A DNA stretch of 64,000 bases from Eubacterium sp. GTDB lineage: Bacteria > Bacillota > Clostridia > Lachnospirales > Lachnospiraceae. The DNA is taken from positions 16,834 through 80,833 of the forward strand of contig JAGBNF010000020.1 of NCBI GenBank assembly GCA_017634555.1, read 5' to 3'. The translations under genes and the position numbers were made by a program. Shown in pieces: positions 25,631-49,716 of the stretch (within the stretch, counting starts at the first letter, position 1; every line of letters starts with the position of its first letter). The notes under the pieces are model-generated. The model saw only the letters and a list, made by a program, of their open reading frames with translations. It was not told the origin of the DNA and did not search any database.

Positions 25631-27085
25631 TTATAAATCTCCGGTTTCATTGTTATTATGCCGCACATTTTTATTGCTGCGGCCATCATTCGCCTCCATC
25701 TTCACATCCATCTTCACATCCGCATTCGCGGCATATAAAAGTCCACACATTCCGGCCAGTGCCGTCACGATGCACGCCTTGTTGGTGAACCAATAGTGGA
25801 TTGCCGAATGATTTCTCGCAAATATATACCACACCGCCGGAACAAGTGCAAGAATCACATAAGGTATTGCATGTCTCACAGTGTCGCCAAACGTAACACG
25901 GCGTGACCTTATCGAAGCAATCACTCTGATCACTACATATATGAAATATAAAATCATGATCAGCGTTACAGGCGTCTTGAGAAATGTACCGTAATTCGAC
26001 CTGAGCACTGTATATATTCCAAAGCGTTCCAGACCATCCGCAGATTCCGCTGCAGTACGCTGTTTAAATACATTAGTCGCATTATCGAAAAGATTGATTC
26101 CGGTAAGCAGACTGCCGAGGATCCATTTCGAAATCCACATGCATCCATATCCCACGCACCAAAGAATTCCGTTTCGCGCGAGTCTTATGAAGCGTGGCAT
26201 CAATTCCTCCGTTTCTGTCAGCAACAGATAGATTACTGCAGGCACGCCGAACGTCGCGATAGGATATGTAAGCAGATCAAAGTATGCAGTAAGAATTCCC
26301 ATGTTGAGGAATATGAAGAGTGCGCAAAGTTCATATCTTCTTTCTGTATCAGTACTTCTATATGCACATTCACTTCTTTTTGTATCAGATCTTCCTGCCT
26401 TTGTATCCTTATGATTGCTGTTGCAATGCTTACATGTTGCCAGAAGCAGAATCACACCCAATGACAGGACGTAAAAGCAGACTGAAAACTGCATGCTTTT
26501 TGACATCGCTATCGGCATCAGCATCATATATGAAATTACATACGGAACGATAACATTCTTCAATCCGCATCGATACATCAAAACCGAAATCACGCAGATA
26601 ACCAGGAGCTGCACGATTCCGTTAATGATCCTTATGGTAGAATATCCGAAGAGACTGAGCATAGGTCTCAGTATTATCAGGTAACCGTGCCAATAACGTG
26701 AGTAATCATACTCTCTTGTAAAATCTTTTCCATCTATAAAATGTGCTGCGAGCCCTTCTGCTCTATCCAATCCGTCTATTACTCCATGATAGACGAATAC
26801 CGTTTTTTCTATTGTAGATACCTCCGAAGCATCTGCTGCTTCCAGCATCATTATGGAATCAGTGAAATTATCCAGCTGGCTTGTCGCATATTTTGTGACC
26901 TTCGGATATGTACCTTCATTTCGGATTGTGACTGCAGACTGCCGCACATTTTTCTCGATAGGAGAAAGCGGCAATGAGAATGTGATATCCAGCAACACCA
27001 TTCCAATTATTGCTGCCGCTGCGAGATTAAGAAGAATCATCATCGTGTACAGCATGATTCTTTTTGTCATATTACTTTTCGCCAT
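25631..27085 (-). CDS. Polytopic membrane protein, unknown function
   Basis: 484 residues with an N-terminal helix (about 10-32), an extracytoplasmic loop to about 135, and then about nine further helices. An Arg/Asp/Ser-rich cytoplasmic loop lies at about 222-250, and the C-terminal tail is polar. The layout (one helix, large outer loop, many helices) is like GT-C fold glycosyltransferases, but I see no DXD signature in the first outer loop and do not assign it. Operon with the GH114 gene. ATG at 27085 has a weak ribosome site; an in-frame ATG at 27070 is possible. Confidence 0.75.
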   Translation of the reverse strand: MAKSNMTKRIMLYTMMILLNLAAAAIIGMVLLDITFSLPLSPIEKNVRQSAVTIRNEGTYPKVTKYATSQLDNFTDSIMMLEAADASEVSTIEKTVFVYHGVIDGLDRAEGLAAHFIDGKDFTREYDYSRYWHGYLIILRPMLSLFGYSTIRIINGIVQLLVICVISVLMYRCGLKNVIVPYVISYMMLMPIAMSKSMQFSVCFYVLSLGVILLLATCKHCNSNHKDTKAGRSDTKRSECAYRSTDTERRYELCALFIFLNMGILTAYFDLLTYPIATFGVPAVIYLLLTETEELMPRFIRLARNGILWCVGYGCMWISKWILGSLLTGINLFDNATNVFKQRTAAESADGLERFGIYTVLRSNYGTFLKTPVTLIMILYFIYVVIRVIASIRSRRVTFGDTVRHAIPYVILALVPAVWYIFARNHSAIHYWFTNKACIVTALAGMCGLLYAANADVKMDVKMEANDGRSNKNVRHNNNETGDL

Positions 27086-27270: not shown

Positions 27271-27560
27271 TTGCGTAAAAACCAAGACGGTACTAACATA
27301 GCCTACCGAAAACCGTAGATGTGGTAGTACATCGAAGCACTGAGAAGCCATAAAAACCGGAAATTACTACCACGACGCCCCAATAACAATAGGCGTGGTA
27401 GTACACCAGAAATCTGATAATCCGAAAAGACCGGAAATATACTACCATATGGTGGCGAATACAGCATAATGTTAGTACTACCGAAAAATCGAGCAATCAC
27501 ATAAACCGAATTTTACTAACACAATGTACCGAAAACCATGGAAGTGGTAGTACCGAGCCG
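27271..27560 (+). repeat. Array 1: four ~74-bp units with eight alternately inverted TACTA[A/C]CA sites
   Basis: Sites: TACTAACA 27291, TGGTAGTA 27322, TACTACCA 27365, TGGTAGTA 27396, TACTACCA 27440, TGTTAGTA 27470, TACTAACA 27514, TGGTAGTA 27545. Start-to-start distances alternate 31, 43, 31, 44, 30, 44, 31. Between units runs a degenerate stretch (ACCGAAAAATCGAG...ATAAACCGGAAAT type). The array begins after TTGCGTAAAA. A paralogous array lies at 44230-44511. It is upstream of the operon starting at 27085. The 600-base gap holds no convincing gene. Confidence 0.9.
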
Positions 27561-27601: not shown

Positions 27602-27631
27602 GAAAAAAGGACCGCCACCAGGCGGTCCAGA
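27602..27631 (-). terminator. Terminator of the alpha/beta hydrolase gene
   Basis: GGACCGCC-ACCA-GGCGGTCC, followed on the minus strand by TTTTTT. Confidence 0.9.
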
Positions 27632-27684: not shown

Positions 27685-28758
27685 CTACTTATTATCTTCT
27701 ACTATCTCCTCCAGCACTTCCTTAGCTTTGTCGTACTCTTCGTAGAGCGGGCTATGTGCGGAGTTTTCGAAGATGTAGATTTTCTTCTTCGGAGCTTCCA
27801 GCTCTTCATAATATTTTATCTGCAAATCTGAGAGGCAGGTGTAATCGTACTTGCCGACCATAAAGTACACCGGAATATCCATACTTGGTATATCCTCAAA
27901 GGCATTGAATGTATGCGTATCATCGGACACCGGAAATTCGGAAGACTGCTTCTTGCCCTTCCATATCTCAATCCGTTCCTTCTGCGTATATGCCGTACAG
28001 CGTAGGCTCGGAAAGAAGATTCCCGTTATGACGTTATCCATCTTTCTTGTCGTACCGACTCCAAGGTCATGCATTGCCTTATCGCGAAGACCTGATTTGC
28101 AGTATACATCAAATTCATCACTCGACTCAGAAATGCGGTACTTCTCGAATTCACTGACCATCTTATCATTTCCGGCCTTCCGGTATTCTTCCTTCATATA
28201 ATCAAATGCAATGTTTTCGGATTCTACCTGATCAACGATCTGAGACATTGCGATGTAAGCCGCATATTTCTCCGGATGCTCCTGTACAGTTTTCGCTGCA
28301 ATATACGTTCCGAAGGAATGACCCATGATGTAGATCTTATCCTGTGAGAAACGGGCACGCAGATAATCAGTGACAGCCTGCGTATCCCTCAAATATCTTT
28401 CGGTTGTCATATCGGATGGATTAATTCCCGGATCATAGGAACCCCCTGTTCCCCTATAATCCCAGTAACATACTGTGAATACGCTAGGTATTGGAGATTG
28501 ATTAAAATATTCCAGCAGATACTGAGGAATTCCGGGACCTCCACCGCATACGATTAATACCGGATTGTTGACGTTCTCAGATATAATAAACAGCCCGAGG
28601 CTGTCACCGTCTACTTCAAGCTCCACCCGCTCGGAAAGGCCGTTCGGAGTTTTCGGCTCCGGCAGCCTTCCTCTACTTGGCGGAAGTATAATAAGCACTG
28701 CAGCTGCAACGATGCAAGCTGTTATGCCACATATTTTATAAAGTTTCTTCTTTATCAT
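27685..28758 (-). CDS. Alpha/beta hydrolase, proline iminopeptidase-like
   Basis: One N-terminal hydrophobic helix (about 8-25) suggests membrane anchoring. The alpha/beta fold shows the oxyanion region VCGGGPGIP, nucleophile elbow GHSFGTY, Asp region MVGKYDYTC and His region NSAHSPLYEE. The GGGPG and GHSFG pattern is that of S33 prolyl aminopeptidase-like hydrolases. 357 residues. Real substrate unknown. Single-gene unit with a terminator. Confidence 0.85.
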   Translation of the reverse strand: MIKKKLYKICGITACIVAAAVLIILPPSRGRLPEPKTPNGLSERVELEVDGDSLGLFIISENVNNPVLIVCGGGPGIPQYLLEYFNQSPIPSVFTVCYWDYRGTGGSYDPGINPSDMTTERYLRDTQAVTDYLRARFSQDKIYIMGHSFGTYIAAKTVQEHPEKYAAYIAMSQIVDQVESENIAFDYMKEEYRKAGNDKMVSEFEKYRISESSDEFDVYCKSGLRDKAMHDLGVGTTRKMDNVITGIFFPSLRCTAYTQKERIEIWKGKKQSSEFPVSDDTHTFNAFEDIPSMDIPVYFMVGKYDYTCLSDLQIKYYEELEAPKKKIYIFENSAHSPLYEEYDKAKEVLEEIVEDNK

Positions 28759-28784
28759 ATAAATTGTGTTCCTTTACTAACACA

Positions 28785-40756: not shown

Positions 40757-43462
40757 TTACGCTTTCTTAGTCTTACGGTAAGCACCCTTAACCTTGTCAG
40801 GCTTTGGAGCTTCAGCAATGTCGGCAGCTGTAGGCTTCTTTGTCTCCTCGAAATGCTTGCCGCCGTAGTATGCATTGAGATACATCTGTTTGATCTCAGA
40901 CATTAACGGATAACGCGGATTTGCGCCTGTGCACTGATCATCGAAGGCCTGCTCAACCATATCATCGAGACGGTCAAGGAAATCCTTCTCATCGATTCCG
41001 TAATCCTTGATTGTATCCTTGATACCAACTCTCGCCTTGAGGTCATTAACAGCCTTGATAAGATTCTCGAGCTTCTCCTCGTCAGTCTTACCGCCAAGGC
41101 CGAGTGCGTCAGCAACCTCAGCATATCTTGCGAGCGTATGAGGATGATCGTACTGTGAAAATGTACCCATCTTCGCAGGTGCTTCCGCAGCATTGAAACG
41201 GAGTACCTCTTCGATCATAAGAGCATTTGCAACTCCGTGTGGCAGATGATGGAATGCACCGAGCTTATGTGCCATTGAATGACATACTCCCAGGAAGGCA
41301 TTGGCAAAGGCCATACCGGCCATAGTAGCGGCATTTGCCATCTTCTCGCGTGCTTCGATATCTGTCTGGCCGTTCTCATAAGCTCGCGGCAGATACTTAA
41401 ATATATTCTTGAGTGCCTGAATAGCAAGGCCATCGGTATAATCCGTTGCAAGCATTGCAGCATAGGCTTCAAGTGCGTGTGTTACGGCGTCGATACCGGA
41501 TGCCGCAGTCAGTCCCTTAGGAGCAGACATGTGGAAATCCGTATCGATGATCGCCATGTTAGGAAGTAACTGATAATCAGCAAGCGGATATTTAACACCT
41601 GACTTCTCATCAGTAATAACTGCGAATGGAGTAACCTCCGAACCTGTACCTGCAGATGTCGGGATAGCGATGAAGTAAGCCTTCTCGCCCATCTTAGGAA
41701 ATGTGTAAATTCTCTTTCTGATATCTATGAATCTCATTGCCATATCCATGAAGTCAGCTTCCGGATGCTCATAGAGAACCCACATGATCTTACCTGCATC
41801 CATAGCTGAACCACCACCGAGTGCGATGATTGTATCAGGCTTAAATGCTCTCATCTGCTCTGCACCGCGGAGTGCACATTCAAGTGTAGGATCCGGAGCA
41901 ACATCATAGAAGCAGCTGTATTCGATGCCCATTTCCTCAAGCTTTTCGAATATCGGCTTAGCATAACCATTTGTATAAAGGAACTGGTCTGTAACGATGA
42001 AGGCACGCTTCTTATTCATTACATTTCTCAGCTCATCAAGTGCAACTGGGAGACATCCCTTCTTGATATATACCTTCTCAGGTGCTCTGAACCAAAGCAT
42101 GTTCTCTCTCCTTTCGGCAACTGTCTTGATATTGATAAGGTGCTTAACTCCCACATTTTCCGAAACGGAGTTTCCGCCCCATGAGCCGCAGCCCAGTGTA
42201 AGTGACGGAGCAAGTTTGAAGTTGTAAAGGTCTCCGATACCACCCTGTGATGAAGGAGTATTAACGAGGATACGGCAGGTCTTCATACGTGATGTGAACT
42301 CTGCAAGCTTATCCTGCTCTGTAACTTCGTTGAGATATACCGATGATGTATGACCATAACCGCCGTCAGCGATAAGGTGCTCTGCCTTGTCAAGAGCATC
42401 AGCGAAGCTCTCTGCCTTGTACATAGCAAGTACAGGACTCAGCTTCTCGTGAGCGAACTCCTCAGAAAGATCAACGCTTTCAACCTCACCGATGAGGATC
42501 TTTGTTCCTTCAGGAACTGTAACTCCTGAAAGCTCTGCAATCTTAGCTGCAGACTGGCCAACGATCTTTGCGTTGAGCGCTCCATTTATGATAATAGTCT
42601 TACGAACCTTTTCTGTCTCAGCCGGGTTAAGGAAATAACAACCGCGTGCCGCAAATTCCTCTTTGACTGCATCGTAAATAGATTTAAGAACGATAACTGA
42701 CTGCTCAGATGCACAGATCATACCGTTATCAAATGTCTTGGAGTGAATGATGGAATTCACTGCAAGAAGGATATCTGCGGTATCATCTATGATCGCCGGT
42801 GTGTTGCCTGCGCCTACGCCTAAGGCAGGCTTTCCGCTGGAGTATGCAGCCTTTACCATTCCCGGACCGCCTGTGGCGAGGATGATGTCAGCTTCTTTCA
42901 TTACAAAATTGGTCATGTCCAGGCTAGGTACATCGATCCAGTCAATGATTCCTTCCGGTGCACCTGCAGCAACCGCAGCCTCAAGGACAAGCTTGGCTGC
43001 TGCAATCGTGCTGTTCTTAGCACGCGGGTGTGGGCTGATAATAATGGCATTACGGGTTTTAAGAGCTATCAGGCATTTGAAGATAGCCGTAGAGGTTGGA
43101 TTTGTCGTTGGGATGACCGCTGCGATAACGCCGATAGGCTCAGCAATCTTCTTCATACCGTATGCCTTATCTTCTTCTATAACTCCACAGGTCTTGGTAT
43201 TCTTGTAAGCATTATAAATGTACTCTGACGCATAGTTGTTCTTGATTACTTTGTCTTCAACAACTCCCATGCCTGTCTCTTCTACTGCCATCTTAGCGAG
43301 AGGGATACGTGCTTTGTTAGCAGCGGAAGCGGCAGCCAAGAATATCTTATCCACCTGTTCCTGTGTGTAAGTTGCAAAAAGCTTCTGAGCTTCTCTTACA
43401 CGCGCGATCGCTTCTTCAAGCTTTTCAACGCTGTCGACAATTTCATACTCCTTTACGTCCAT
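40757..43462 (-). CDS. adhE: Bifunctional aldehyde-alcohol dehydrogenase AdhE
   Basis: Acetyl-CoA to ethanol enzyme. N-terminal CoA-acylating aldehyde dehydrogenase (about 1-440) with NAD site region VPTTNPTSTA-like IPTTNPTSTAIF and catalytic Cys in GMICASEQS; C-terminal iron-dependent alcohol dehydrogenase (about 460-880) with GGGSAMDAGK, and iron ligands of the Fe-ADH family including DAVTHALEAY and CHSMAHKLGAFHH. 901 residues, full length. Overlaps rex by 20 bases, so it is in the same transcript and under Rex control. Confidence 0.97.
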   Translation of the reverse strand: MDVKEYEIVDSVEKLEEAIARVREAQKLFATYTQEQVDKIFLAAASAANKARIPLAKMAVEETGMGVVEDKVIKNNYASEYIYNAYKNTKTCGVIEEDKAYGMKKIAEPIGVIAAVIPTTNPTSTAIFKCLIALKTRNAIIISPHPRAKNSTIAAAKLVLEAAVAAGAPEGIIDWIDVPSLDMTNFVMKEADIILATGGPGMVKAAYSSGKPALGVGAGNTPAIIDDTADILLAVNSIIHSKTFDNGMICASEQSVIVLKSIYDAVKEEFAARGCYFLNPAETEKVRKTIIINGALNAKIVGQSAAKIAELSGVTVPEGTKILIGEVESVDLSEEFAHEKLSPVLAMYKAESFADALDKAEHLIADGGYGHTSSVYLNEVTEQDKLAEFTSRMKTCRILVNTPSSQGGIGDLYNFKLAPSLTLGCGSWGGNSVSENVGVKHLINIKTVAERRENMLWFRAPEKVYIKKGCLPVALDELRNVMNKKRAFIVTDQFLYTNGYAKPIFEKLEEMGIEYSCFYDVAPDPTLECALRGAEQMRAFKPDTIIALGGGSAMDAGKIMWVLYEHPEADFMDMAMRFIDIRKRIYTFPKMGEKAYFIAIPTSAGTGSEVTPFAVITDEKSGVKYPLADYQLLPNMAIIDTDFHMSAPKGLTAASGIDAVTHALEAYAAMLATDYTDGLAIQALKNIFKYLPRAYENGQTDIEAREKMANAATMAGMAFANAFLGVCHSMAHKLGAFHHLPHGVANALMIEEVLRFNAAEAPAKMGTFSQYDHPHTLARYAEVADALGLGGKTDEEKLENLIKAVNDLKARVGIKDTIKDYGIDEKDFLDRLDDMVEQAFDDQCTGANPRYPLMSEIKQMYLNAYYGGKHFEETKKPTAADIAEAPKPDKVKGAYRKTKKA

Positions 43463-44099
43463 TTTTCTCCTCCTGATCCTGATTCTTTAATTGGTTATTT
43501 AAATGTGCCAGAGATAGTGCCAGATTTTCATTCTGAAGCATTATTCCTTCGGGAACCTCCAACTTACATGGCGCGAAATTCCATATAGCGGCTATTCCCG
43601 CCTGCACCATCAGGTCGCATACGACCTGGGCTGAGCCTTCACCCACGGTGATGATCCCGAGCCTTATTGAATGAGTTTTGCAGTAAGCTTCGAAACGATT
43701 CATCGGAAGTATTTCCGTTTTACCGTTCAGGCTGATCACCTGTTCGTTGCAGTCAAATGCGGCCGAAATCATTACTCCGTATTTGCGAAATTCGTCATAC
43801 TCCAGCAGCGCTCTTCCGAGCCTTCCGGCTCCAACCAGCACAGCTTCTGTAAGACTTTTAATGCCTAAGGCTTCCTCAAGTTTTTCGATAAGTTCCTGCG
43901 TCACATATCCGAGCTTAGGTTTTCCCGCTCCGCTCACGGCGGCAAGATCTTTTCTCACCTGTACTTCCCCAAGACTGAGCTTCTTCGATATCGTCGTTGC
44001 CGATATATAGGAATACTCATCCGGCGGAAGTTCCCGCAGCATTCCGAGATAAACCGGAAGCCTGCCGAGGGTTGCCTTCGAAACAGATAATCTCTCCAT
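43443..44099 (-). CDS. rex: Redox-sensing transcriptional repressor Rex
   Basis: NADH-sensing repressor of fermentation genes. N-terminal winged helix (about 1-75: ISATTISKKLSLGEVQVRKDL, with AVSGAGKPKLGYVT) and C-terminal Rossmann domain with AVLVGAGRLGRALLEY, and a C-terminal swap helix. About 218 residues. ATG at 44099 has AAAGGAGG 7 bases upstream; an ATG at 44120 lies before the ribosome site. It directly precedes adhE (20-base overlap) and has two inverted repeats of operator size upstream, so it is probably autoregulated. Confidence 0.95.
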   Translation of the reverse strand: MERLSVSKATLGRLPVYLGMLRELPPDEYSYISATTISKKLSLGEVQVRKDLAAVSGAGKPKLGYVTQELIEKLEEALGIKSLTEAVLVGAGRLGRALLEYDEFRKYGVMISAAFDCNEQVISLNGKTEILPMNRFEAYCKTHSIRLGIITVGEGSAQVVCDLMVQAGIAAIWNFAPCKLEVPEGIMLQNENLALSLAHLNNQLKNQDQEEKNGRKGV

Positions 44100-44168
44100 A
44101 CCCCTGCCTCCTTTCCTCATTTCGGTTACATTGTAATTTCAGGAAGCGTGATTGAAAATTCTTAAAAA

Positions 44169-44229: not shown

Positions 44230-44511
44230 AATACTAACATTCACTCTTTATCAGCTTGATATGGTAGTATTTTCCGATTCCTGTAATTGCTCAATTTTTC
44301 GGGTGTACTAACATTCTTTGACTATCGGCACGAATTGGTAGTAAATTTCCGGTTATTCTGGCTTCTCAATTTTTTGGCATACTACCACTTCAGCGGTTTT
44401 CAGTACGTCTTGTTAGTAATTTCCGGTTTTTCCGGCTACTGAAAGCATCTACATACTACCACCACTATGGTTTTCGGCAGGTTATGTTAGTAATGCCCCG
44501 GTTTTACGCAA
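44230..44511 (-). repeat. Array 2: paralogous four-unit TACTA[A/C]CA array upstream of rex
   Basis: Sites: TACTAACA 44232, TGGTAGTA 44262, TACTAACA 44306, TGGTAGTA 44336, TACTACCA 44380, TGTTAGTA 44411, TACTACCA 44454, TGTTAGTA 44485. Distances 30, 44, 30, 44, 31, 43, 31. In reverse complement the units align with array 1, including spacers such as CGAAAAATTGAGCAATTAC and the TTGCGTAAAA end. Upstream of the rex-adhE operon in a 540-base gap with no convincing gene. Confidence 0.9.
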
Positions 44512-44512
44512 A

Positions 44513-44562
44513 TAACAGACCCATGAATGTCAGAATTAATTCTGACATTCATGGGTCTGTTA
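44513..44562. other. 50-bp perfect palindrome
   Basis: TAACAGACCCATGAATGTC... is symmetric to the base about 44537/44538, with no loop. It abuts array 2 (1 base apart) and follows the LysR gene by 76 bases. No T-run follows on the minus strand, so a simple terminator is uncertain. Confidence 0.9.
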
Positions 44563-44638: not shown

Positions 44639-45559
44639 CTAGATATACTTCCTCCTGGATTCACACAGCTCCGTTATGAACTGCTGATCAAGCTTAGTAA
44701 GCTTATAGCCATCCTTGTAGATCAGGACGTCCTTGTAAATCTTCTTGTTATCCGCACATTTCCTGAGGACAAGATTGTAACGTTCAAGCAGCTTCTTCGG
44801 TGCCGGTGAAACCCACATAAAGGTTTCAGGATTCATGGACAGAAGATCGAACTGACTTGCTCTCTCGAAGATAAAAATTCTTCGGTCGATGTTATCAGGA
44901 AGCTCCTCCTTCACAACCTTCGAAAGCGGCATCGACGGAACGTATGGATCCGCATGAGCGATCTCAATATAATCCGTCAGATCCTCGAATGTAATCTCCT
45001 CTTTCTTTGCAAGTGGATTCTCAGCACTCATGATGAGTGAATAAGTAAACTCCGTGACCAGCTCATACTGGAAGCCCTTCTCCTCAAGCATGGTTTTGAA
45101 GTATTTATCATAATTCTCAGCATAACGGATAATACCCAGCTTATAATCATGATTCAGCATGTTGTGGATCGTACGCTGAGAATTGGTCTCCTTATAGAAG
45201 ACTTCAGTAGGCTCCTTTGTGAGTGACTTTGAGAACTCAGCAAATGCCTCAGATATATAACAAGCACGCGGTACAGATATGGAAAACTTCTGCTTCGGAG
45301 TTGCGGCAGACTTATAGAACTTCTCGAGATCATCAATCTGATTCAGAATCCCCTTCGCGAAGTTAATGAACTCATCCCCCTCCGGTGTCAGCTTCATACC
45401 GTTCTGGGTACGTTCAAAAATCGTAATTCCGAGATCACTTTCCAGCTCCTTTATGGAACGGCTGATATTCGGTGCCGCGATCATAAGTGACTCCGAAGCC
45501 TTATTCAGCGAGCCGGCCTTCGCAACCTCCAGCGCATGCTTCATATGTAGTAAATTCAT
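44639..45559 (-). CDS. LysR-family transcriptional regulator
   Basis: N-terminal winged helix (about 1-65: ALEVAKAGSLNKASESLMIAAPNISRSIKELE), linker helix and an effector-binding domain of about 220 residues with the two lobes typical of LysR proteins. 306 residues, normal. RBS AGGTGA precedes the ATG. It lies 116 bases after the alanine dehydrogenase gene in the same direction, so it may regulate it; LysR genes usually are divergent from their targets, so this is only a guess. Confidence 0.92.
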   Translation of the reverse strand: MNLLHMKHALEVAKAGSLNKASESLMIAAPNISRSIKELESDLGITIFERTQNGMKLTPEGDEFINFAKGILNQIDDLEKFYKSAATPKQKFSISVPRACYISEAFAEFSKSLTKEPTEVFYKETNSQRTIHNMLNHDYKLGIIRYAENYDKYFKTMLEEKGFQYELVTEFTYSLIMSAENPLAKKEEITFEDLTDYIEIAHADPYVPSMPLSKVVKEELPDNIDRRIFIFERASQFDLLSMNPETFMWVSPAPKKLLERYNLVLRKCADNKKIYKDVLIYKDGYKLTKLDQQFITELCESRRKYI

Positions 45560-48216: not shown

Positions 48217-49716
48217 TTAATCTCTGCGGAATAAGTCTCTTGTGTAAACCTTCTCTTCTACATCATCAAGCACACTGTCATAACGGTTAGCGATGATGCA
48301 TCCACACATCTTCTTGAACTTCTTAAGGTTATTTACAACTGTAGAACCGAAGAATGTTGAACCATCCTCAAGTGTCGGCTCATATATAACAACCTTAGCG
48401 CCCTTAGCCTTGATACGCTTCATTACGCCCTGTATCGAAGACTGTCGGAAGTTATCACTGTTACTCTTCATAGTAAGACGATAAACACCTACTATAACTT
48501 CCTTCTGCTTATTCTCACGATCAACATTGTACTGAGTATCCTCTGAATAAGAATATGCACCGGCAATCTCAAGTACTCTGTCTGCGATGAAGTCTTTTCT
48601 TGTTCTGTTACTTTCAACGATAGCCTGGATAAGATTCTCCGGAACATTCTGATAGTTAGCAAGAAGCTGCTTTGTATCCTTTGGAAGGCAATAACCACCG
48701 TATCCGAATGAAGGGTTATTGTAGTAATCACCTACTCTCGGATCGAAGCAAACACCCTTGATAATGTCTGCAGTATTAAGTCCCTTTACCTCTGCATAAG
48801 TATCAAGCTCGTTGAAGTAACTTACACGAAGTGCAAGATATGTATTAACGAAAAGCTTTGTAGCTTCTGCTTCTGTTGTAGCCATACGAAGTACAGGAAT
48901 ATCAGTCTTGATAGCACCCTGCTGAAGAAGCTTGGCAAATCCGTCAGCTGCTTCCTGATTCTTCTCATCAGAACCAACAATGATTCTTGCAGGATAAAGA
49001 TTATCATAGAGTGCCTTACTCTCACGTAAGAACTCAGGACTGAAGATGATGTTATCCATACCCAGCTTCTCTCTAACCTGAACTGTATATCCAACCGGAA
49101 TAGTTGACTTAATAACTATTGTCGGCTTTTTCTTCTTTTTAGCTGTAGCTGACTTGATAAGTGAAAGCACCGACTCAACAGCACTGCAATCGAAATAGTT
49201 AGTCTTTGGATCATAATTTGTCGGTGCAGCTACGATAATATAATCTGCTGAGCTGTATGCCTTATCTCCATCAAGTGTAGCAGTAAGGCTGAGACCACGA
49301 GCCTCATGCTCTGCCAGATACATCTCAATATAATCATCCTGAATTGGGCTGATCCAGTTATTCAGTTTCTCTACCTTCTCAGGTACAACGTCTACAGCAG
49401 TAACATCATTATGCTGTGACAGAAGAACTGCAAGTGAAAGACCTACGTAGCCCGTACCTGCTACAGCGATCTTCTTTTTCTTTACTTCAATCTTTTCAGC
49501 TTCATCATCAACCAAAACATCCTGCATAGAAAAGCCAAGCTCTTCCATAAGTACAAGAAGCTGATCAACAGACGGAGTATAATCCTCCGATTCAAGTCTC
49601 GATAAAATAGAACGATTAATACCTGTTTTCTTTGCAAGCTCTGCCTGCGAAATCTTAAGCGCTTTTCTCTTTCCAACTACTGTGTCTGCAAGCAGACCTA
49701 ATGATAATTGCTTCAT
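48217..49716 (-). CDS. UDP-glucose 6-dehydrogenase with N-terminal XRE-type HTH domain
   Basis: Makes UDP-glucuronate from UDP-glucose using NAD. The dehydrogenase starts at about residue 80 ([19 protein letters not shown]) and includes [10 protein letters not shown], the [12 protein letters not shown] block, and catalytic Cys in [15 protein letters not shown], with the C-terminal NAD/UDP-binding domain. Residues 1-70 are an XRE-like helix-turn-helix ([22 protein letters not shown]), not normally part of this enzyme; the two are in one uninterrupted frame. 499 residues. Own promoter at 49785 and hairpin in the leader. Next gene downstream is the UDP-GlcA 4-epimerase. Confidence 0.93.

Follow-up and report, generated by a model that had tools for sequence, protein, structure and literature searches.

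A phased array of inverted sites in a Eubacterium genome belongs to a dispersed family associated with a putative nuclease gene beside comEC

What could a row of 8 alternately inverted sites, spaced in a fixed rhythm between 2 genes of a Eubacterium sp., be for? We analyzed the stretch of 64,000 nt of contig JAGBNF010000020.1 in which it lies (hereafter the window; its own genome is labelled G000), and a recount matched exactly the 8 TACTAMCA sites and the spacing of 31/43/31/44/30/44/31 bp given in the initial annotation, with sites at 27291+, 27322-, 27365+, 27396-, 27440+, 27470-, 27514+, and 27545- (array A1; Table 1). TACTAMCA occurred 17 times in the window, whereas 100 dinucleotide shuffles averaged 2.85 copies and never exceeded 7; 8 copies lie in A1, 8 in a second array (A2), and 1, at 28775, that is an isolated TACTAACA (28775-28782) with no array around it. 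A1 was confirmed as real, far beyond chance expectation. It is flanked by 2 minus-strand genes, lying beyond the hairpin that follows the first of them and ahead of the next (25631-27085), and A2 lies beyond a hairpin of its own, ahead of a rex-like gene (43443-44120), with its purine-rich strand opposite to that of A1. Two 67-aa open reading frames overlap A1, and the one scanned had no Pfam match. Elsewhere in the window, a single minus-strand open reading frame (48217-49716), surrounded by polysaccharide-type genes, carries an HTH_3 domain at its N-terminus followed by a UDP-glucose/GDP-mannose dehydrogenase, a fusion that seems unusual.

Table 1. Arrays, array units, and neighboring hairpins in the window
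Feature	Coordinates	Strand	Description
Array 1 (A1)	27291..27552	.	4 palindromic units, 8 alternating TACTAMCA sites
A1 unit 1	27291..27329	.	TACTAACA-N23-TGGTAGTA
A1 unit 2	27365..27403	.	TACTACCA-N23-TGGTAGTA
A1 unit 3	27440..27477	.	TACTACCA-N22-TGTTAGTA
A1 unit 4	27514..27552	.	TACTAACA-N23-TGGTAGTA
Terminator-like hairpin	27609..27628	-	Follows minus-strand gene 27685-28758; own scan
Array 2 (A2)	44232..44492	.	4 units, 8 sites, spacing 30/44/30/44/31/43/31
Terminator-like hairpin	44520..44555	-	Between lysR-type gene (44639-45559) and A2; own scan

We identified 6 known arrays in G000 (2.33 Mb, 72% complete), with those outside the window on contigs C1 (19408-19668), C16 (7010-7342), C22 (32449-32707), and C23 (4627-4886); by the chain search, 5 of them have 4 units and 1 has 5 units. 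The initial annotation had treated A1 singly, and its membership in a dispersed family, with a core that differs between lineages, had been missed. A pattern of 2 TACTAMCA pairs was found in 1 of 397 family genomes sampled, namely the own genome, and in 3 of 61 genus genomes (G000, G402, and G447). The possibility, allowed for in the initial annotation, that no second genome shows the geometry is thereby removed: it is present in these 3, the own genome included, and the same period occurs under other cores in more. A plain pair pattern run over genome contigs was discarded as too loose, matching at least 116 stretches, and among the matches listed just L045 (= G447) had 2 pairs at the right period.

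The units are palindromes of 37-39 bp separated by gaps of 35-36 bp, with a period of 73-75 bp that would correspond to about 7 helical turns. We collected 30 chains from the 3 genomes, and those uncut by a contig end have a plus site first and a minus site last, the exceptions being L193-T, with 2 mismatches in its closing arm, and L201, with a first arm that is not recognizable. The inner distance was 30 in 16 and 31 in 9 of the 25 units of G000, 29 in 52 of 53 TACTAMCA-type units of G402, and 29 in 4 and 30 in 2 of the 6 units of G447, and the outer distance was 43-44 in every chain collected from these genomes. A further array class in G402 keeps this geometry and is built on the core GCTAACC (e.g., L195:9262-9668 and L291:2350-2906). 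Of its units, 47 of 48 have an inner distance of 30; the outer distance is 44 in 39 of 40 cases and the period is 74 in 73 of 77. The exact pattern of this class was found in 1 of 61 genus genomes. The 11 chains collected per class in G402 were located by 2 exact patterns and are not a full census; the 2 classes (TACTAACA and GCTAACC) are adjacent at 4 places (L193, L195, L198, and L200).

An 11-unit array on contig C27 of G402 (L198:9561-10327) consists of repeating 146-bp dimers, a higher-order arrangement like that of eukaryotic satellites. Contigs C3, C4, C13, C27, and C37 of this genome start or stop within or right beside arrays, so that array numbers from such assemblies are likely underestimated. 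A short minisatellite of CTTCATGACATCA-like units (L199:6250-6600) is unrelated to the arrays, and a group II intron (L196:10110-12050) lies right past a terminator-like hairpin that follows an array. Neither array class matched viral contigs, A1 matched no plasmid, and viral contigs queried with the partner protein described below (P0001), A1, and L381 yielded none that was confirmed; the single phage match to the composite array of G402 (E 0.3) was taken as chance. A plasmid or phage array was rejected, since these searches gave no accepted match. Spread through a tyrosine integrase near L203, which adjoins a tRNA gene, or through the group II intron near L196, which comes after the terminator, was not favored.

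For 4 of the 6 G000 arrays, the orthologous position in G402 is likewise occupied by an array (C1/C27, C16 [7010]/start of C37, C22/C15, and C23/C62, the second supported by 1 flank at a contig end), a proportion that gives no rate for intergenic regions generally because the G402 stretches were mostly fetched for their arrays. The G402 counterparts of C1 and C16 are of the GCTAACC class, and that of C22 has both classes. Neither A1 nor A2 could be assigned an orthologous position in G402; the gene right of A1 has merely a 35% relative there, and the rex-like gene beside A2 has no G402 match at E<=1e-40. Mean spacer identity in 3 orthologous pairs was 0.27-0.41 versus 0.30-0.38 after shuffling, and fourfold sites in 8 flanking genes of the compared pairs were 0.32-0.67 identical. 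Spacers in G402 were 0.68-0.84 identical within an array (T 0.80, G 0.76), 0.32-0.53 between arrays, and 0.28-0.34 when shuffled, and the high within-array identity points to recent tandem duplication in place. In G000, identity was 0.44-0.48 within arrays versus 0.40-0.43 between them (within arrays, 0.48 for outer spacers, shuffled 0.31, and 0.44 for inner parts), and the G000 arrays look older than those of G402. The detector found no array at the orthologous loci upstream of GH120 in G439, G421, and G417, or upstream of the HD-domain gene in G439 and G417. The GH120-type gene has arrays of 3 different cores in 3 species, as if it were a preferred place, upstream in G000 (L144:7450-7708) and G402 (L195:9262-10116) and on the 3' side in G422 (L248, ~1090-1350).

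A likely partner of the arrays, which the initial annotation had missed, is a nuclease-type gene at another locus. In G000, 70 bp separate the end of the C1 array from the stop codon of the gene that encodes P0001 (272 aa) and directly follows comEC (Competence domain plus metallo-beta-lactamase). Among 61 genus genomes, 21 gave a total of 23 homolog matches to P0001 (E<=1e-6), with a single one in G402 (P0002) and none in G447 at this threshold. A ComEC-type C-terminus (GHP motif) lies upstream at 18 of the 19 loci holding an open reading frame of >100 aa there, and of 7 upstream proteins scanned (2 being the same G000 gene), 6 matched lactamase or competence families.

With 1300-bp flanks, chains of at least 4 alternating sites were found at 19 of 23 homolog loci versus 2 of 49 control loci, and chains of at least 6 at 13 of 23 versus 1 of 49, the controls being flanks, some of them short, of 2 unrelated genes in congeners. 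A core-blind detector was positive at 15 of 23 homolog loci and 1 of 60 other congener loci. The long control match (L248 in G422, core GCAACA, 3' of GH120) is a genuine array in its own right, yet G422 is without a homolog at E<=1e-6. No chain was found at L335, L337, L339, and L340 (3 of these 4 being distant homologs, and L339 having a short flank), although L335 gave a doubtful chain of 5 in a separate core and distance search. The chain of 5 at L336, counted among the 19, is doubtful and looks like chance, as does a downstream chain of 5 at L326, where the true array is the 4-site one upstream. Downstream of the distant homolog at L336 (G403) we also observed tandemly repeated units bounded by GTGCC...GGCAC, of a period that differs and is shorter, which may be another form of site array. 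We accepted 18 loci (L318-L334 and L338), with a period of 72-75 at 17 and 83 at L323, in a core and distance search open to periods of 63-83. That the nuclease gene and the site array are associated is, on these counts, close to certain.

Cores at the homolog loci differ between genomes: GGCTAATC in G427; GGTAACA in G415 and G160; GGCTAAG/GGCTATG in G449 and G424; GGCAGAC in G413; GGCTATA in G436 and G442; GGCAACA/GGCATCA in G445; GCAACA in G400 (with GCCACA), G421, G452, and G455; GCTAACC in G402; and TACTAMCA in G000, with short and less certain arrays in G440 and G418. Cores resemble each other more where the proteins are more identical (Mantel r=0.58 over 17 loci, a value reached in 0 of 20000 permutations; L339, L335, and L381 left out), with the core register set by hand and 2 of the proteins 97% identical, and linked descent could add to the correlation. 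Common descent of the linked DNA could even account for it alone.

P0001 had no Pfam match at E<=10 and 1 NCBIfam match at E 0.07, and a search of the PDB by sequence gave a best E of 0.25, to a chain that is not a nuclease. An alignment of 20 members revealed invariant RSKSE, YE, PDFT, EHFG, and K228, with E166, D196, E211, and K228 as invariant residues, motifs that we take to be the PD-(D/E)XK pattern. All 20 members matched the C-terminal part of PDC-S68, a group of candidate phage-defense proteins in PADLOC; unlike these, whose models span ~1200 residues, P0001 matches just the last ~120 positions. The HEAT_CxxC_PD-DEXK model was matched by 4 of 20 members. The P0001-type C-terminal part was also found in AAA ATPase, RecD-like, RecQ helicase, and unannotated proteins on 9 plasmids, and 3 "Bacteriophage sp." records from human feces matched the family, 1 of them over most of its length. 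Downstream of a 33% identical homolog in one "Bacteriophage sp." sequence (MT839528.1; L381:3840-4150), several GCAAC/GTTGC and TTGCC/GGCAA words were seen. From the motifs and profile matches, the C-terminal half of P0001 is a PD-(D/E)XK-like putative nuclease domain; the N-terminal half had no specific match in the libraries searched.

We analyzed whether the sites are read as DNA or as RNA from the variation of their 2 arms. Core position 6 (A/C) was equal in both arms in 9 of 25 G000 units, with 12.4 expected, and no clear excess of arm agreement appeared at the other variable core positions of this genome (lowest P 0.125); the 2 arms thus vary independently, and a conserved hairpin is not favored. 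Pairing beyond the core at depths 1-8 was mostly no higher within units than across arrays, the exceptions being G000 (depth 1), the GCTAACC class (depths 7-8), and the 2 G447 arrays (depths 4-7). Over 16 nuclease loci (L323, L329, and distant homologs left out), 59 of 102 units had a non-pairing position in the 7-bp core. It was present in every unit at 5 loci (L320, L324, L330, L331, and L334), often as the edge position of the core at L331-L334, and in no unit at L319 and L325-L328, where perfect pairing fits a hairpin too. In 78 of 102 units, AAA fell within the 9 nt at the center, against a purine-rich background that was uncontrolled.

These data bear on a reading in which the array is transcribed as structured or guide RNA and the nuclease uses its hairpin RNAs, as other RNA-guided nucleases do. 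In its favor, the array stands next to comEC and the nuclease gene or in between; all 18 accepted loci have the purine-rich strand as the sense strand of the nuclease, a bias not demanded of a site read purely as duplex; and cores change on both arms between lineages, with all units pairing at the 5 loci named last. For 26 of 30 chains, both strands fold with an energy beyond -2 standard deviations of 30 shuffles, which favors an RNA array too and is expected of an inverted repeat. Further, PMC10910872 reports non-CRISPR repeat arrays with nucleic-acid-binding proteins, 1 of them PD-(D/E)XK, and small RNAs. Against the RNA reading stand the arms without covariation in G000, the loci with a non-pairing position in every unit, and the G402 spacers, which inside an array are near copies and not variable as guides would be. 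Dispersed arrays also occur in both gene orientations: of 22 chains between co-directional genes, 17 have the purine-rich strand in the sense and 4, among them A1 and the C16 array, in the antisense orientation, and 1 is even. They occur on both sides of terminators as well. In a scan of 26 intergenic regions, in which "strong" was our own choice and the rest had none or weak hairpins, arrays followed a stronger terminator-like hairpin in 7 (A1, A2, L143, L193, L200, L202, and L203) and preceded one in 4 (L196, L197, L199, and L291). A series of terminators was rejected on the same grounds. Rfam had no match in the window, and in 7 array loci it matched tRNA, a group II intron, and c-di-GMP-I, none inside an array. 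The structured RNA proposed in the initial annotation, or a cruciform stem, is disfavored by the missing covariation in G000, yet 5 of 16 nuclease loci pair perfectly. An RNA array thus seems unlikely, and it is quite likely that the arrays are read as DNA sites.

If the arrays are read as DNA, their reader could be a transcription factor unrelated to the nuclease, with A1 and A2 regulating their neighbors and the nuclease gene merely one target. Consistent with such operators, of the 24 chains whose neighboring genes are both known, 23 are located upstream of one or both (the next gene start is 206 bp from A1 and 112 bp from A2), positions are kept between species, and the period is near 7 helical turns. 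However, the array stands beside the nuclease gene under different cores, and the regulator would have to change each time with that one gene; in 2 samples (G445 and G160) it was found only there. The target genes are unrelated to one another, and all exact pairs listed for G000 and G402 lie inside chains, with no solitary operator seen. We therefore regard operators of an unrelated factor as improbable. The initial annotation's alternative of an operator-like array for an unknown DNA-binding protein held in part: it fits best as to how the sites are read, and independent arms, fixed geometry, and unconserved spacers agree with it, but the likely partner is encoded elsewhere and, as arrays stand before and after terminators and beside unrelated genes, is likely not a regulator of the neighboring operon. 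Passive satellite DNA, in which slippage-prone tandem repeats are kept by copying alone and the nuclease locus is a mere hot spot, would explain the homogeneity within arrays, the dimer repeat on C27, the contig breaks, and the near copies (judged by eye) of one composite block on C15 and C55 of G402, but it is very unlikely, given that arrays persist in 3 orthologous pairs while their spacers drop to the shuffled level, that the outer spacing of 43-44 holds across unrelated spacers, and that cores track the protein.

At the locus shared by G000 and G402, pyruvate kinase is 97% identical versus 58% for the nuclease (P0001/P0002), the 147-aa gene across the array from the nuclease is 64% identical, and the array cores are TACTAMCA (G000) and GCTAACC (G402). 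Cores of the GCTAACC class in G402 were intact at 98 of 99 sites versus 82 of 109 for TACTAACA (P=8e-8), and in G447, which has no homolog, TACTAACA cores were intact at 8 of 12. Such decay in G402 and G447 is expected if old arrays have lost their reader. This reading is not secure, since in G000, which has the reader, TACTAMCA was intact at 43 of 50 sites, not significantly different from 82 of 109 in G402 (P=0.15). In 368 kb sampled from G445 and 346 kb from G160, the detector picked up arrays at the nuclease locus alone, and in 201 kb from G422 only the one at GH120; 2 isolated GCAACA pairs were seen in G445. Arrays are clearly dispersed in G000 and G402, these 3 samples show little or no dispersal, and the lack of dispersed arrays in the G445 and G160 samples indicates that spreading is not a constant property. 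That the nuclease drives array spread has, in our judgement, a little less than an even chance.

On balance we lean towards a pairing of a chromosomal nuclease-type gene with cognate site arrays, of which A1 would be one dispersed copy. The parent locus in G000 would be that on contig C1, with its array beside the P0001 gene. It is likely that a P0001-type protein is the reader of the sites, and its N-terminal half would bind the cognate pair as double-stranded DNA, the half-sites being inverted and 29-31 bp apart, with the next pair at 43-44 bp and a repeat of about 7 helical turns. Each protein lineage would have its own core, protein and core evolving together, and arrays would be copied to other intergenic places and lengthened through tandem duplication, probably via breaks and repair at or by the nuclease, which is presumed to cut. 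A changed protein allele would then let a new core class spread, with the old arrays left behind.

The arrays would work in outline like the REP-BIME-RAYT (TnpA-REP) systems, although 2 defining features of that family fail. Those systems (PMC2817692) share with G000 and G402 the dispersed, extragenic, regular, and alternating repeats, a chromosomal gene flanked by its own repeats, and a repeat sequence that varies with protein lineage. The protein here is PD-(D/E)XK-like, unlike RAYT, which is a Y1 (IS200/IS605-type tyrosine) transposase; the unit consists of two 7-8 bp half-sites with a poorly conserved and mostly unpaired interior, and the REP feature of a GT(A/G)G head by a conserved self-complementary palindrome, given in the same source, is absent. 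Further, tens of units are known here versus over 100 REP elements, and the array lies on 1 side of the gene only. The description of A1 in the initial annotation as neither CRISPR nor REP therefore holds for membership, but the alternating orientation and regular spacing are as in BIMEs (PMC2817692).

Period, unit, and gap lengths are also like those of CRISPR, unlike which the unit interiors vary and the gaps are not unique in G402. No cas families were found among 60 proteins Pfam-scanned beside arrays and near them in the window. We rejected a CRISPR array because the G402 spacers are copies, and for G000 the rejection rests on the variable interior. The 6 systems of non-CRISPR interspaced repeat arrays in PMC10910872 (1 with an AddB-like PD-(D/E)XK nuclease/helicase) are described with hypervariable spacers, and array transcripts were seen for 2. 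The nuclease-linked one is alike in joining a nuclease-domain protein to a regular repeat array without cas genes; in our arrays, spacers within an array resemble one another in G402, alternating inverted half-sites are what is conserved, and the protein has 272 aa. In mainly non-subscription, non-bioRxiv literature, as far as its accessible parts go, we recognized no description of the nuclease-array pair.

Tentatively, and at somewhat less than even odds, we propose an undescribed two-part system, in which a solo PD-(D/E)XK nuclease with a DNA-reading N-terminus, encoded beside comEC, would read and spread phased arrays of inverted sites with lineage-specific cores, a change of allele starting a new wave of arrays on or beside the last. 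Bacterial repeats with a dedicated chromosomal enzyme are, to our knowledge, chiefly those of REP and RAYT. If the proposal is true, the arrays and their nuclease would be a second, unrelated repeat-enzyme pair, with a nuclease replacing the transposase, and such a lifestyle would have arisen more than once. The protein-core pairs, including the natural allele change, would form a series for reading a new DNA-recognition code. The location beside comEC raises a possible link to natural transformation, and the nuclease-array system may tie DNA uptake through ComEC to the marking of the cell's own chromosome.
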